Below, one piece after another: positions 58,134-63,891 of a stretch of DNA of 64,000 bases; position 1 is the stretch's first letter; every line of letters starts with the position of its first letter. A program made the position numbers and the translations under genes. Origin of the DNA: Rossellomorea marisflavi (lineage in GTDB: Bacteria > Bacillota > Bacilli > Bacillales > Bacillaceae_B); the NCBI RefSeq assembly GCF_022170785.1, contig NZ_CP081870.1, positions 3,844,001-3,908,000 of the forward strand. Reading direction: 5' to 3'. Below the pieces are notes generated by a model. The model searched no databases, was not told the origin of the DNA, and saw only the letters and a list, made by a program, of their open reading frames with translations.

Positions 58134-58256
58134 CGTGTGCGAAGGTGTCAGTATTTGCCGAATAATATTTCGCTTTTGCGTCAAGAAATATATTCCAATT
58201 AAGAGAGTTATGTGGTTTAATTAATTGATTTTACTAATAGGATATTGGAGGATACT

Positions 58257-61200
58257 ATGAGGAAAAAGTTGATCAAGAGTTTACTAGCTTTGATTGTGAT
58301 TTTCAGTGTTTGCCTGCCACAGCTCCCACAAGCAAACGCTGCAACGGTGATTGAAGAATTGCCGCTTGCCATGTCGGAATTAACAGAAGGGAGTTTTACC
58401 GGTGATGATCATGTTCAGTGGTATAAAATCACCCCTGGAAATGATACTGTCGAACAGTTTACACATCTGAGAATCAAGCTTGAATCCCAATCTGAGGTGA
58501 ACATGAGTATTTACTCAAGCCTCGAAAATGCCACCGATGACAATACGTTCGAACAATATAGAGGCTATTCCTATAATCAGGAAACCGCGTCCATCGACTT
58601 CCCGATCTCGTGGGTGGGTCCTTACTATATCAAACTCGAAAGCTATGTAGAAGAGGATGAAGACGGCAATCTGCTGCCTAACCCTTATAAAATAAGCTAC
58701 GACGGCGTATCCCTCCCACCTTCTAATGGGGCTGTAGGAGAAGAATGCCCTGCAGAACTCAGCGTCGAGAAAAAGAAAAATGGAAAAGTGATTTTGTCCG
58801 ACCTTCGTTCGATTCGTGAGAATCTGCTTTCCAAAACAGATAATGGAAAAGAACTGACGGCCGTATATTATAAGTCCGCTCCATTCATCACGTCTAAAAT
58901 GCTGTTTGATAAAAACCTGCGTGAAGACGTGTATGCAAACCTATCCATCTTGAAAAATCTTTTGAGTGATACCGCGAAGAACGGCGGATCAAGTACGTAC
59001 GCAATCTCTGACAAAGAGCAGGAAGCCATCAGCAACCTGTACACGATCGCTCATGATGCCGTACCGGGCCCTCTGAAGACACAGCTTGAAAACTCCGTTA
59101 AGAATGTGGATCTTTCGAAGTTAACCGGCACATCCGTTTCACAAGTAGTCTCAAAAGCAGGTCTCAGCACCTCAAGTTCAACCACTGATCCTTCCCGCCT
59201 GATCGTGAAAGTAAAGGACGGTCAGCCAACAAGCCGCGTAAAATCCAAAGTAGAGACTTACGGAATCAAATCCGTGGACGACCTGTCCAAAAAAGAGTTG
59301 AAATCAGATCGCTTCCTTGTCGTGGAAGTAAAGAATAATGGTAAAGGGTTCTCGGCTAGTTCGAAAACAACGGCCAATCAAATCGCCAAACTACCTGAAG
59401 TCGAATTCGTAGAGCCGGTACAGACCTACAAGGCTCTATCCGCAGACGTTCAGTATGAGCATCAATGGTCGTTAAATAACGGCGAGAAAAAAGGCAGCGA
59501 TATCGGGTTTGAAGCCCTTGAGAAACTGTTGAAAAATAAGAAACTAGACAAAACTGTGATTGCCGTTGCTGATACTGGTGTCGATCACACCCTTGCAGAC
59601 CTTTCAGGTAATGTCCTTGTAGATAAAGGATACAATTTTGTGGATCGTAACGATGATGCCATGGATGACAATGGCCACGGGACACATGTATCTTCCATCA
59701 TTGCAGCAAAGTCCGATAATCATTACTCCATGGCCGGGATCAATCCATATGCTGAAATCCTGCCGATCAAGGTGCTTGATTCATCTGGTGGCGGGGATAC
59801 CGAACAGATCGCAGCCGGGATCATGTATGCAGCCGATAATGGAGCCAAGGTGCTGAACCTTAGCCTTGGAGGCGGATACAGTCGTACGATTGAATATGCC
59901 CTGCGTTATGCAAGTGACAAAGGCGTGACCATCGTAGCCGCAAGCGGTAATGACGGGATGGAGGAACTGAACTACCCTGGTTCTTCTAAATATGTAATCG
60001 CAGTCGGTTCAACCAGCAAATTTGATATCGTTTCCGATTTCTCGAATTACGGAAAAGGGTTGGATCTTGTAGCGCCTGGTTCGGACATCCCTGCCCTCCT
60101 TCCAGACGGGAACGTCACCTACATGAGCGGAACATCCATGGCGACACCGCATGTTGCCGCAGTAGCCGGTCTGCTCCTTTCTCAGAAACCAACGATGAAG
60201 GCTTCTGAAGTGCAGGCACTGCTGAATAAGACAGCCGTCGATGTCGCTTTCGACGAACAGGATAACCCGTATACTGGAGAAGAAGACTATTGGGATGAAG
60301 AAGTAGATGGTCCATACCCTGTCGAGGTCTTACCGCCTGGATACGATCACGTATCTGGATATGGACGCTTGGATGCGTTCAGTGCCGTCAGTACACTTGA
60401 CCTGGGGGCAACCATCAATCCGATCCTTAATAACTCAAAAGCCGTTACAGGGAAAGCCAAAAACGGATCTACAGTAGAAGTATGGAACGGGAAAAAGTCA
60501 CTTGGCAAGGGAACCGTCAAATCCGGCTCCTACAGCGTGGCCATCCCGGTACAAAAAACCGATCAGATCCTGACCGTAGTCATTACAAATGGCATTGCTA
60601 AGACTTCTGTAAAACAAGTCGTAGAAAAAGCACCGGATAAACCAAAAGTTAAAAAAGTAACCAATAAAGATACCACCCTGTCAGGTACGGCCCAGGCAAA
60701 CCTGAAAGTGAATATTAAAAATGCTTCCCGCAAAGTCATCGCAACAGGGAAAGTCGATAAAAACGGTTCATTCAAAGTAAAGATCCCCAAACAAAAAGAA
60801 AACGCGGTCCTCTACGTAACCGTACAGGACGGCTACAAAGAAAGCTCTGAAACAAAAGTGACCGTCATCGACGTCATCCCACCGGCTGCTCCAAAAGCAA
60901 AAGCAATCAGCGATAAGAGTACTTCCATCACCGGCACAACCGAAGCAAAAGCCCAGGTCGTCGCCAAGGTGAAGGGTAAACAGATCGCGAAAGCCAAAGC
61001 GGATGCAAAAGGGAAATTCACCCTTAAGATCAAGAAACAAAAAGCAGGTACCACCGTTGTCGTGACCGCGACCGATGCCGCAGGCAACACGAGCAAAGGC
61101 ACAAACTTAAAAGTAGCAGACAAAACACCACCTGCTGCACCAAAGGTGAACAGCGTCAACAACAAAAGCACTTCCGTCAAAGGTAAGACTGAAGCCGGTG

Positions 61201-61376
61201 CCACTGTCACCGTCAAAGTGAAGAACAAAAAACTCGGTGAAGCCAAGGCCAACAAAAAAGGCGAATTCACCGTCAAAATCAAGAAACAAAAAGCAAAGAC
61301 CGTCCTATCTGTCACAGCCAAAGACAAAGCAGGCAACGTAAGCAAGGCGAAAAACGTGACTGTGAAGAAGAAATAA
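58257..61376 (+). CDS. Large secreted subtilisin-family (S8) protease with C-terminal Ig-like repeats
   Basis: 1039 residues from ATG 58257 (TGGAGGA upstream). Signal peptide ends PQANA-AT. An N-terminal PPC-like beta-domain (about 35-150), a helical region, and an inhibitor-type propeptide (RLIVKVKDGQPTSRVKSKV) precede the catalytic domain with Asp439 (ADTGVDH), His474 (NGHGTHVSS) and Ser627 (SGTSMATPH). The domain contains an acidic insert after KTAVDVAFDEQ. The tail from about 720 has four bacterial Ig-like modules with the recurring KGKFTLKIKKQKAGT pattern, all very Lys-rich, probably holding the enzyme on the anionic wall. It is a plausible DegU-controlled exoenzyme. Confidence 0.92.
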   Translation: MRKKLIKSLLALIVIFSVCLPQLPQANAATVIEELPLAMSELTEGSFTGDDHVQWYKITPGNDTVEQFTHLRIKLESQSEVNMSIYSSLENATDDNTFEQYRGYSYNQETASIDFPISWVGPYYIKLESYVEEDEDGNLLPNPYKISYDGVSLPPSNGAVGEECPAELSVEKKKNGKVILSDLRSIRENLLSKTDNGKELTAVYYKSAPFITSKMLFDKNLREDVYANLSILKNLLSDTAKNGGSSTYAISDKEQEAISNLYTIAHDAVPGPLKTQLENSVKNVDLSKLTGTSVSQVVSKAGLSTSSSTTDPSRLIVKVKDGQPTSRVKSKVETYGIKSVDDLSKKELKSDRFLVVEVKNNGKGFSASSKTTANQIAKLPEVEFVEPVQTYKALSADVQYEHQWSLNNGEKKGSDIGFEALEKLLKNKKLDKTVIAVADTGVDHTLADLSGNVLVDKGYNFVDRNDDAMDDNGHGTHVSSIIAAKSDNHYSMAGINPYAEILPIKVLDSSGGGDTEQIAAGIMYAADNGAKVLNLSLGGGYSRTIEYALRYASDKGVTIVAASGNDGMEELNYPGSSKYVIAVGSTSKFDIVSDFSNYGKGLDLVAPGSDIPALLPDGNVTYMSGTSMATPHVAAVAGLLLSQKPTMKASEVQALLNKTAVDVAFDEQDNPYTGEEDYWDEEVDGPYPVEVLPPGYDHVSGYGRLDAFSAVSTLDLGATINPILNNSKAVTGKAKNGSTVEVWNGKKSLGKGTVKSGSYSVAIPVQKTDQILTVVITNGIAKTSVKQVVEKAPDKPKVKKVTNKDTTLSGTAQANLKVNIKNASRKVIATGKVDKNGSFKVKIPKQKENAVLYVTVQDGYKESSETKVTVIDVIPPAAPKAKAISDKSTSITGTTEAKAQVVAKVKGKQIAKAKADAKGKFTLKIKKQKAGTTVVVTATDAAGNTSKGTNLKVADKTPPAAPKVNSVNNKSTSVKGKTEAGATVTVKVKNKKLGEAKANKKGEFTVKIKKQKAKTVLSVTAKDKAGNVSKAKNVTVKKK

Positions 61377-61455: not shown

Positions 61456-62127
61456 TCATGCTGCTTCGTATTTCTTTGGTTTCTCCCGTTTCCGCAAGCG
61501 AAGGCCCACATAGAGTGAAATCAAGCCTGCAAATGCTGTTGAAATCAAGGTCAACACCGGATGGTCCTGATAAGGAAGACTGGTATGATAGCCGATTTTA
61601 TCTTCTGTCAGCCCGCGAATCCACTGGGTCTCGAGCTTGGAATTCTCCCCCGACGGGAAGGTCGACTTTTTCACGACGCCATTTTCATTGATCCGGAACG
61701 TCTGGAACTTCTGATCCCCTTCTTCCACCACTCCTGGCGTCAAACGCAGGGCGGCAATGAACCACTCTTCCCCAGTTTCCTTTTCCTTCATTACCTTGTA
61801 CTGGACAATGCCCTTGAACACCTTCATGTCGCTCTTTTCACCCGTTTCGACTCCTGGCACCTTCACCTTGGCCCGCTCCTCTTCCTGAAGCTCCAGGAGC
61901 ACCTCAGGACCATCCCGGTACGTCTGCACCTTCACCCCGTGGAATACCTGAACCATTTCCGTATCCTCCGGTGACTGGAACGAGTAGCTCTTTTCAATTC
62001 CATTCTGATACACAAGCTCCCTGACAGACTGCACGGTGAAATAAAGGACGATGGTGAGCAGGACGGCTCCTGCGGCGAGTAGTAAGACTGAGATGAGTTT
62101 TGATAGATTGATGGGTTTGTTTGGCAT
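61456..62127 (-). CDS. Membrane protein with extracytoplasmic domain, unknown function
   Basis: 223 residues from ATG 62127 (GAGTGAT upstream; GTG 62136 is the alternative). Two helices near the ends (about 10-33 and 188-208) enclose a beta-rich domain of about 150 residues (HGVKVQTYRDGPEVLLELQEE-like, limited here to its general character). Cytoplasmic tail is Lys/Arg rich. The two-helix plus domain layout resembles DUF3592-type proteins, but I cannot confirm a family. Separate from the regulator gene upstream by 37 bases. Confidence 0.65.
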   Translation of the reverse strand: MPNKPINLSKLISVLLLAAGAVLLTIVLYFTVQSVRELVYQNGIEKSYSFQSPEDTEMVQVFHGVKVQTYRDGPEVLLELQEEERAKVKVPGVETGEKSDMKVFKGIVQYKVMKEKETGEEWFIAALRLTPGVVEEGDQKFQTFRINENGVVKKSTFPSGENSKLETQWIRGLTEDKIGYHTSLPYQDHPVLTLISTAFAGLISLYVGLRLRKREKPKKYEAA

Positions 62128-62163
62128 TGGGATCACTCAGATCTTCAAAAGAATTTCACAAAA

Positions 62164-63039
62164 CTATTGTGATAGTTGCTTGATTTTGTCCTTAATAAAA
62201 TTCATATATTTATCATCTTGTTGTAGTTCGAATACAATTAATGCTTTTTCCATAAGCTCTTTAGCTTCCTTTGGTTTGTTTACTAATTCAAGATTGTAAC
62301 CTTTTTGGTAAAGGATTTCTCCCAACAAGTAAATACTATCTCTTTGTAGACACCACTTAATCGCTTCAGCACAATACTTATTTGATTCATCTAATCTATT
62401 TAGTATTGTAAGAGTTCTTGCCAAATTGTAATAGAGCCTGGTTTTAATCGTGTAGTCATTTAAATGAGGCAGTAATTGAACATGACTGCCCACTTCTTCA
62501 AATATTGTTAGTGCCATATTTATATCTGCTTCTGAGTAAATTGCTCCAATAGTTAGCAGGATCTCTATTTCTCTTTCCTGCATAATTTTCCCTTTCACAT
62601 CCGCAATGTGTACCGCTTTATAAAGTGTTTCAATTGCTTCATCTTTCTTATTTTCTACTTCATATAAATAAATCCCTTTATGCCATAGTAGAAGTTGTAA
62701 ATTTTTTTTGTTTTGTGAAAACAGTGGGTTTACCTCTTCAGCTTTCACTATATCCATCATTTCTTTGAATCTCAGACTTCTTCTCATGATTTGTAATTGT
62801 TCGACGACTTCTTGAACGTAATCCAACCGTGGAGTTGTTCCTATATCAAAGAAGTAATTAACATCCACACCTAACTTCTGCGATATTTGATATAGTGTGG
62901 AGGCATACGGAAAGACAAGACCTTTTTCAATTTTACTAATCTGAGCTTGTGTACATATCCCTTCAGACAATTCTTCTTGTGACAAACCACTGTTTTTTCT
63001 TAATTCTTTAATTTTTTTTCCCACAGCGGAAAAATCCAT
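62164..63039 (-). CDS. PlcR-like RRNPP-family quorum-sensing regulator (HTH-TPR)
   Basis: 291 residues from ATG 63039, chosen because AGGAG lies 8 bases upstream (GTG 63048 would overlap that site). N-terminal Xre helix-turn-helix: GKKIKELRKNSGLSQEELSE, CTQAQISKIEKGLVFP. The remainder is an all-helical superhelix of tetratricopeptide-type repeats, for example TRLYYNLARTLTILNRLDES, NKYCAEAIKW and IYLLGEILYQKGYNLE, the same arrangement and length as PlcR. RRNPP regulators bind short imported peptides in the TPR groove. It diverges from a small secreted-peptide gene, and a box repeated elsewhere lies in its leader. The pheromone pairing is inferred, the family is well supported. Confidence 0.88.
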   Translation of the reverse strand: MDFSAVGKKIKELRKNSGLSQEELSEGICTQAQISKIEKGLVFPYASTLYQISQKLGVDVNYFFDIGTTPRLDYVQEVVEQLQIMRRSLRFKEMMDIVKAEEVNPLFSQNKKNLQLLLWHKGIYLYEVENKKDEAIETLYKAVHIADVKGKIMQEREIEILLTIGAIYSEADINMALTIFEEVGSHVQLLPHLNDYTIKTRLYYNLARTLTILNRLDESNKYCAEAIKWCLQRDSIYLLGEILYQKGYNLELVNKPKEAKELMEKALIVFELQQDDKYMNFIKDKIKQLSQ

Positions 63040-63052
63040 ACAATTCACTCCT

Positions 63053-63075
63053 AAATATGCCTAAAGTTATATTTT
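63053..63075. promoter_or_regulatory. Candidate operator box 1 of the PlcR-like regulator
   Basis: The 20-base core AAATATGCCTAAAGTTATAT is followed by TTT. It recurs with only two changes at 63421-63443. Outer ATAT/ATAT half-sites give partial dyad symmetry, and TATG-N8-TATA loosely recalls the PlcR box TATGNANNNNTNCATA. It overlaps the regulator leader and lies about 60 bases upstream of a TATACT -10 element (63123-63128) of the peptide gene. Confidence 0.6.
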
Positions 63076-63235
63076 ATGAGATAAACCACAATATACGTGT
63101 AGTTTTCAGTGAAAAATAAGAGTATACTTAATTTTATTTAAAAAATGCCCATATTAAAAATGTGTTTTAATTATTATAACATCTGTAAACAAAAACTGAT
63201 TGACTTATATTTAAAATCCAAAGGAGGAAAGCCCT

Positions 63236-63352
63236 ATGAAGAAATTCGTTTTAAGTGCATTTACCGTGTTGGTTCTAGTACTTGGATTTGTAGGTACATC
63301 ATATGCCTCAGAGATTCAGCCTTTATCCACCTTGCCTGGAAAAGCATATTAA
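63236..63352 (+). CDS. Small secreted peptide, candidate pheromone precursor (PapR-like)
   Basis: 38 codons, ATG 63236 with a perfect AAAGGAGG 8 bases upstream. Lys-Lys start, hydrophobic core (FVLSAFTVLVLVLGFVG) and signal-peptidase site TSYA-SE leave the 14-residue tail SEIQPLSTLPGKAY. PapR-type precursors have the same build: signal sequence plus a short C-terminal peptide processed to 5-8 residues and re-imported. The active PapR peptide also carries Leu-Pro and an aromatic C-terminus (ADLPFEF). It lies divergent from the PlcR-like regulator, 197 bases apart, between the two copies of the shared box. Role is inferred from layout; the gene itself is well supported. Confidence 0.78.
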   Translation: MKKFVLSAFTVLVLVLGFVGTSYASEIQPLSTLPGKAY

Positions 63353-63420
63353 TTATAGGTGCTTGTAAATTTCACGCCTCCTAGTATGGAAGCGTTTTTC
63401 TTTTGCCTAACTAATTTTGT

Positions 63421-63443
63421 AAATATGCCCAAAGTTATATATT
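63421..63443. promoter_or_regulatory. Candidate operator box 2 of the PlcR-like regulator
   Basis: The core AAATATGCCCAAAGTTATAT followed by ATT differs from box 1 at two positions of 23. It lies about 70 bases after the peptide stop codon and 125 bases before the next gene; a weaker relative (ATATTTACCCAAAATC) follows near 63460. Confidence 0.6.
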
Positions 63444-63567
63444 TACTCAAAAACAGAACATATTTACCCAAAATCAAAGATGCATCAATTATATACCTTA
63501 ATAAGCCAAAATCCCCTTGTTTTTAAAGTGTGGTAGTATAAAAGTACAATAAAAGAAAGGGGGCTTC

Positions 63568-63891
63568 ATGATGAATAGCATAAGCATGAAAGTAAATCCT
63601 CTATATTCTGAAATTGATTTGTCGATTCAGTTCCATTTTGAGTTCTTGCAAGGTGATTGCAAGGTCGGGGAGGCACTCGCATCCACGTATCCGATCGAGA
63701 ATCATCAGCAAGCCCTCAAGCCTAAGCATTTGTCGTTTCCAAAGGTAGAAAAATGTGCAGTCATTGATTTGTTTGATGTCGTTGGGGATTTGGAGAAGGG
63801 CTGTCTGAAAAAGCTCCACCACTTCCTGAAGGTGATTGGAATGAAAGAAGTTCATGCAGGTTATGACATACAGCGCGAAAGCATGGTATAA
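63568..63891 (+). CDS. Small hypothetical protein, putative target of the PlcR-like regulator
   Basis: 107 residues; ATG 63568 (or 63571) follows GAAAGGGGGC. No signal peptide or membrane helix. Predicted mixed alpha/beta (NPLYSEIDLSIQFHFEFLQG, CAVIDLFDVVGDLEKGCLKK) with no motif I recognise. The promoter area carries operator box 2 and a TTGTTT/TATAAA-like pair, so control by the PlcR-like protein is possible. Ends at a strong hairpin. Confidence 0.6.
   Translation: MMNSISMKVNPLYSEIDLSIQFHFEFLQGDCKVGEALASTYPIENHQQALKPKHLSFPKVEKCAVIDLFDVVGDLEKGCLKKLHHFLKVIGMKEVHAGYDIQRESMV

Follow-up and report, generated by a model that had tools for sequence, protein, structure and literature searches.

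The PlcR-PapR system of the Bacillus cereus group pairs an HTH-TPR regulator with a small Sec-type precursor, the C-terminus of which carries an LP core (PapR7, ADLPFEF), and 45 genes are controlled there through the box TATGnAnnnnTnCATA. This box lies at varied distances before the -35 element in B. cereus (PMC2464732). In Bacillales systems, the pheromone is encoded immediately downstream of its receptor, and precursors with repeated mature signals, up to six each, occur in the Rap, NprR, AimR, and PlcR subfamilies (PMC9765709). PlcRa-PapRa of Bacillus cereus ATCC 14579 has papRa upstream of plcRa, and its targets are devoid of the PlcR box (PMC3519770). In Paenibacillus polymyxa, AloR-AloP combines a receptor, an adjacent peptide gene, and an adjacent target, which is spo0E-like in Alo13, with many pairs per genome and some receptors without a peptide (PMC7425212).

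The locus described here lies in a 64-kb stretch of Rossellomorea marisflavi DNA (the window, C1:3844001-3908000 of its genome) and resembles PlcR-PapR in the length and predicted fold of its regulator, in its small Sec-type precursor, which has an LP core at the C-terminus, and in a box with a 16-nt core. It differs in the sequence of that box (TATKCCTAnAGTTATA), in having apparently one private target instead of 45 controlled genes, and in its gene order, the peptide gene being divergent from the regulator rather than immediately downstream of it. With PlcRa-PapRa it shares a peptide gene upstream of the regulator, targets without the PlcR box, and a similar groove, in which the signal CSIPYEY was docked in the case of PlcRa, whereas the papRa product is 93 aa long and contains its signal internally, the main target of PlcRa, abrB2, is a regulator gene, and the authors found no motif conserved upstream of the PlcRa targets (PMC3519770). 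The likeness to AloR-AloP resides in the adjacency of receptor, peptide gene, and target and in the presence of additional receptors without a peptide, but the AloP peptide is of the SHGRGG type, the target is another one, and the peptide reduced target expression (PMC7425212).

We read this locus, with a probability of roughly 0.73, as a peptide quorum-sensing circuit of the PlcR/PapR type that serves one dedicated output, a reading built on gene order, conservation, the box, its spacing, and co-inheritance as they come out of sequence comparison. The kind is already known, namely the PlcR subfamily of RRNPPA; what is new is a proposed private target, the box before it, and the near-invariant spacing. 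The first-pass annotation had proposed a new pair of the PlcR/PapR type in an organism apparently not of the B. cereus group. Kinship with PlcR in sequence and structure searches and a conserved LP-core peptide argue that the pair is real, but the novelty of its kind was overstated, PlcR-subfamily pairs and multi-copy precursors being already published (PMC9765709). That annotation also lacked the third gene, the constant geometry of the promoters, and the occurrence of the unit in several genera. Large RRNPP surveys list receptor-peptide pairs, and outputs appear to be known for few of these; comparative genomics here names a candidate operator, both promoters, and a putative private output gene, making the whole circuit testable in ordinary environmental Bacillaceae.

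The regulator and the divergent peptide gene

The regulator gene (62164..63039, minus strand) encodes a 291-aa PlcR-like protein with an HTH and a TPR-type helical domain. Its start is better placed at ATG 63039, with the Shine-Dalgarno (SD) sequence AGGAG 8 nt upstream, than at the listed GTG 63048, because the latter overlaps this SD. Pfam reports HTH_19, HTH_3, TPR_8, and RNPP_C above cut-off, and both the size and the TPR repeats are those of RRNPP/RRNPPA receptors (250 to 500 aa). Kinship with the PlcR subfamily extends over the full length in sequence and in fold: phmmer aligned residues 7 to 292 of a 294-aa reading of the protein with PlcR (2qfc, E 6.7e-19), no other solved structure matching over the full length at E ≤ 0.01, and the all-helical AlphaFold2 model (pLDDT 89.4) retrieved the PlcR-PapR7-DNA complex 3u3w first in Foldseek (E 6.2e-12, 24% identity over the structural match), ranks 1 and 2 both being PlcR. 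NprR receptors are ~420 aa long. They carry an extra three-helix bundle, and the 291-aa regulator, passing from the HTH directly to TPR-type helices, is not of that type. In the alignment columns corresponding to the peptide-backbone contacts of PlcRa, N205 is found in 40 of 45 rows and R/K208 in 43 of 45; these positions are docked contacts (PMC3519770), mapped to PlcR through alignment.

The same genome carries five PlcR-like paralogues arranged head-to-tail at C1:3616394-3620960 (L007:4356-8961, minus strand), which form their own clade in the tree. No peptide gene was seen between them in the ORF list, and they are possibly orphan receptors or eavesdroppers.

Divergent from the regulator, the 38-aa pro-peptide gene lies at 63236..63352, preceded by the SD AAGGAGG (63221..63227), these and all following features of the peptide gene being on the plus strand. 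The precursor starts with KK and a hydrophobic core detected by the hydropathy filter, and its 24-residue signal sequence (63236-63307) ends in TSYA, the SYA cleavage site being read by eye; the 14-residue tail SEIQPLSTLPGKAY occupies 63308-63349. Within this tail, TLPGKAY (63329-63349) is the candidate mature signal, placed by analogy with the heptapeptide PapR7. The precursor combines the direct adjacency and Sec-type signal of RRNPP/RRNPPA propeptides with the PapR-like, LP-core C-terminus of the PlcR subfamily, and a terminator-like hairpin with a T run, also recognized by eye, follows at 63374..63404. The divergent arrangement, the SD, the signal sequence, the tail, and the two boxes are all present as the first-pass annotation had described them.

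A peptide gene not conserved beside the regulator had been named beforehand as an observation that would refute the pair; the comparison did not refute it, the gene being present at every orthologous locus found in the genus. Across 41 genomes (own plus 40 relatives), the best regulator match reached 62 to 100% identity in 24 of the 25 same-genus genomes, the exception, G009, being 84% complete. At each of these 24 loci (L008-L031), which are orthologous in the sense of a best match per genome, not a reciprocal one, a divergent ORF with an SD, a signal-type N-terminus, and an LP-core tail is present; the last residue is Y or H in 24/24 and [E/D]LP occurs in 22/24, the window having TLP. Beyond this set, 74 named relatives have the locus (L049-L122, with overlapping assemblies, e.g., L122 = L009 and L050 = L012), belonging to Rossellomorea, Cytobacillus, Peribacillus, Niallia, Bacillus, and others, the nearest being R. 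marisflavi JCM 11544. The divergent LP-core gene is intact in 60 of these 74, frame-broken in one (L093), and was not found in ten (L092, L104, L108-L115). In the remaining three (L117, L119, L121) an LP-core peptide is encoded downstream of the regulator on the same strand, the strict PlcR-PapR order, which is not that of the window. These three loci are from Thermoactinomycetaceae, and their in-line peptide ends in LYTLPFQH.

In the alignments, the SD, the signal sequence, and the LP-core end of the peptide gene are kept and the middle part diverges. The LP-core unit is repeated in frame 2 to 5 times in 23 of the 60 intact precursors, which points to a peptide as the product; the window precursor has a single copy. 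Compared with the repeated precursors described for RRNPPA, related species here differ in copy number (1 to 5), and the signals are of the LP-core type. The signal also differs between sister lineages, with LPGKAY here and LPENIY in R. marisflavi JCM 11544, the regulator of which is 79% identical. Such a change of signal, together with the varying copy number, makes the locus a good case for the evolution of peptide dialects and repeated precursors. In another family, the L138 precursor has five ELPPVH units and the third gene is absent from that genome. ELPSVY, ELPPVY, ELPGLY, LPGKAY, and ELPTQF were not found in the literature searched, and the corresponding pairs may sit in supplementary tables of PMC10075063 and PMC9765709.

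Box, promoter spacing, and the third gene

The core TATKCCTAnAGTTATA precedes both the regulator/peptide pair and a third gene. Box 1 (AATATGCCTAAAGTTATATTTT, 63054..63075, plus strand, 32.7 bits with the position weight matrix) is the proposed operator between the regulator and the peptide gene and adjoins the regulator's SD; box 2 (AATATGCCCAAAGTTATATATT, 63422..63443, plus strand, 25.0 bits) is the proposed operator of the third gene. The intergenic alignment displays the conserved AAATATkCCTAnAGTTATATTTT beside the regulator and TGnTTTAAT before the peptide gene. A regulator-side site with at least 17 of 22 matches to the consensus, which was written from the genus alignment, is found in 69/74 named loci, and the box profile was trained on 29 distinct sites of this kind. 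Upstream of the third gene, the best profile site beats 20 of 20 shuffles of its own region in 58/58 named loci (single bases shuffled, 20 shuffles per region). In many loci, a second box copy lies 3' of the peptide terminator. The 1.3-kb unit proposed by the first-pass annotation holds for the regulator, the peptide gene, and the boxes but not for its extent; box 2 belongs to the third gene and the unit runs to 63891.

In the window, only two boxes score above 9 bits, and both have an extended -10 with its hexamer starting exactly 102.5 nt from the box centre: TGtTTTAAT (63163..63171, plus strand) for the peptide gene and box 1, and TGgTAGTAT (63531..63539, plus strand) for the third gene and box 2. 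An extended -10 was defined as TG, one base, and T....T with at least 4/6 matches to TATAAT, scanned at 140 positions (29.5 to 168.5 nt). The four of the 74 loci with a box score below 15 (L105, L117, L119, L121) were left out, and the 70 peptide-side promoters include ten from loci without the peptide gene. On the peptide side, the extended -10 lies at 101.5/102.5 nt in 66/70, with 26 instances spread across the 138 other positions; before the third gene, it does so in 54/58, with 6 instances elsewhere, and 52 of the 58 loci have this geometry at both promoters. Shuffled spacers gave the geometry in a mean of 0.5 (peptide side) and 0.26 (third gene) loci, the largest counts being 3 and 2 in 200 shuffles. 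Since a few loci had an overlapping partner site with a higher score, the box of the third gene was taken among the three best windows with preference for GTTAT or ATTAT. The sequence of the box-to-promoter spacer is near background (median identities 0.37 and 0.34), and among representatives with less than 70% spacer identity the geometry still holds in 43/46 and 31/35. The candidate -35 is mostly poor, the best match being at most 3/6 in 54/70 peptide-side and 47/58 third-gene promoters. We infer from the fixed spacing an activation from a set upstream site via a rigid complex, and its near-constancy raises the question of how activation by a PlcR-like protein could reach so far and tolerate so little variation.

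The third gene (63568..63891, plus strand), the proposed private target, encodes a 107-aa protein which structure prediction assigns a GNAT-like fold. In GNAT proteins the acetyl-CoA motif [RQ]xxGx[GA] sits between strand 4 and the following helix. At that position the motif is found in 0/44 rows of the third-protein alignment, and the pattern occurs elsewhere in 9/44 rows, only at residues 29 to 33, in the strand 2-3 turn. Pfam, NCBIfam, and PHROG profiles gave no match at E ≤ 1, and a viral structure library returned top names that are mostly N-acetyltransferases, none at E ≤ 0.001. Among the literature matches listed, no title concerned the third gene or the ~102.5-nt spacing.

The third gene has been inherited together with the closest relatives of the regulator and with no others. 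It lies near the regulator in 58/74 named loci, all 58 with the divergent peptide gene (frame-broken in one), while three loci have the peptide gene only (L103, L105, L106), 13 have neither, and none has the third gene only. Across the order, it is present in 20/249 genomes, all 20 with a best regulator match of E ≤ 1.4e-124, a value reached by 0/229 genomes without it, the threshold (1e-124) having been chosen after inspection of the E values. The box moreover travels with displaced third genes, located 4.5 kb from the regulator in L116, 1.1 kb in L062, L065, and L067, and on the other side in L061; the extended -10 stands at 102.5 nt in the first four, and L061 has the box with no extended -10 at ~102.5 nt. 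In seven further third-gene loci, a box above 12 bits precedes the third gene in five (L130-L132, L135, L136), and none above 12 bits does so in L133 and L134. In L130-L132, from another family, the third gene with its box is 1.3 to 3.6 kb from the regulator. Among these five, the extended -10 rule holds in L131 and L135, and by eye the element lies at 103.5 nt in L130 and L132; the box strings of L136 are identical to those of L118. The exceptions in L061 and in these further loci, like the three loci with the peptide gene only, weigh against the circuit reading.

A proposed circuit and the readers of its box

We propose a model in which the 38-aa precursor would leave the cell through Sec, lose its signal sequence by cleavage after TSYA, and be shortened to about TLPGKAY, this LP-core peptide being then re-imported and bound by the regulator in its TPR groove. 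In this loaded state, the regulator would bind the 22-nt box and activate two promoters, mostly without a good -35 and with an extended -10, acting on each from the same fixed position with the box centre ~114 nt before the start site. Activation of the peptide promoter would yield more peptide in a positive feedback, and that of the other promoter would yield the 107-aa GNAT-like protein as a private effector. Because box 1 adjoins the regulator's own SD, its occupation may in addition restrict synthesis of the regulator. The steps that this model adds to the comparison are secretion, maturation, and import of the peptide, its binding by the regulator, DNA binding, the sign of the effect, and the effector role.

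The sign could also be opposite, the free regulator activating both promoters and the imported peptide switching it off, since the AloR13 peptide shuts off the target of its activator, AloR13 itself activating its neighbour's promoter (PMC7425212). The promoter geometry is silent on sign, and ten named loci keep the box and the promoter without the peptide gene, as would suit such an arrangement. However, the nearest characterized kin, PlcR and PlcRa, need their peptide for activity or DNA binding (PMC2464732, PMC3519770), and we consider the opposite sign rather unlikely.

A true peptide-receptor pair could also be accompanied by a box read by another factor, such as a long HTH regulator, the third gene being merely co-regulated. 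In the own genome, the two locus sites are the best matches to the box pattern (0 and 1 mismatch), with 11 matches at up to 3 mismatches against 14 in the control; by profile, one site beside a 426-aa HTH gene scores above box 2 (31.4 versus 25.0 bits) and two more score 23 bits, all three without the geometry. Because of this stronger site without geometry, the box may be shared with the long HTH regulator, a possible link to a second peptide-sensing regulator. Near-identical boxes stand beside genes for 418- to 426-aa HTH regulators in the own genome (L123, C1:2322301-2322318) and in two relatives (L127, L128), at 31.4, 29.8, and 31.4 bits; from its length we take the 426-aa gene product of the own genome to be NprR-like. 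This recurrence speaks for another reader. Against it, the 102.5-nt geometry is found at only the two locus sites of the 11 own-genome matches, the third gene is co-inherited only with the regulator's closest relatives, and loci devoid of the peptide gene still have the box next to the regulator. A box read by another factor is improbable in our view, and we retain the regulator itself as its putative reader.

Two wider regulons were considered and set aside. For the box described here, 213 matches with at most 2 mismatches were counted against 136 in the reversed control over 31 genus genomes (sums over per-genome rows), and 6 against 4 in the own genome. For the PlcR box, no exact TATGnAnnnnTnCATA occurs in the window and the genome has 5 palindromic sites against 4 in the control; the strict PlcR-PapR arrangement, with this box before the controlled genes, is not the one found here.

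In L124, L125, and L126, two inverted boxes ~174 nt apart, without the 102.5-nt geometry, precede a large secreted-protein gene, presumably encoding a subtilisin-type serine protease, next to a gene which we take to be dihydrolipoamide acyltransferase-like.

Loci without the peptide gene and the surroundings of the unit

The ten loci in which no peptide gene was found all keep the box and the extended -10 at 101.5 or 102.5 nt, and the promoter is followed, by eye, by a short sequence ending in a terminator-like hairpin and a T run. No conserved ORF follows it: within 220 nt, an SD-preceded ORF of at least 10 aa is absent from five of the ten, and those of the others are unrelated. In seven Niallia-type loci, this stretch is ~200 nt long with 82% mean column identity (e.g., L109:4650-4846, minus strand). 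Rfam at the gathering threshold, run on L109, L111, L113, L092, and L104, had epsC as its sole match, in L092 and L104 and at a distance from the promoter, and gave no match for the Niallia-type stretch in the three loci searched. The comparison suggests that the product of the peptide promoter changed there from a peptide to a putative RNA, an output switch that would be striking if confirmed.

The idea that the small gene of the window is no pheromone either, being a regulatory RNA with an incidental ORF or an antimicrobial or structural secreted peptide, draws on these ten loci with the same promoter and a short terminated sequence and on a sub-threshold Rfam match (rli41, E 0.0033, 27.6 bits versus a gathering threshold of 55) overlapping the peptide gene, but is very improbable given the divergence of its middle part against a preserved SD, signal sequence, and LP-core end.

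Coming back to the peptide circuit with a dedicated output, a bolder form of it would define a rigid-position class of RRNPP regulators, acting from ~114 nt through a fixed complex not described for PlcR, on a single effector with a GNAT fold devoid of acetyl-CoA binding, and with the pheromone gene replaced by a regulatory RNA in Niallia and some Bacillus (~200 nt, seven loci). Taken as a whole, this extended form is tentative, and we regard it as possible with the odds somewhat against it.

The secreted protease near the locus, which the first-pass annotation had placed beside its unit, is found within ~5-kb flanks in only 7/74 named loci and is therefore not counted as part of it. A 226-aa gene at 61456-62136, tried as a further member, is likewise in the flanks of 7/74 named loci and was rejected. 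The protease gene of the window occupies 58245-61376, encodes a large secreted protein with repeated C-terminal segments, and is presumably of the S8 type.
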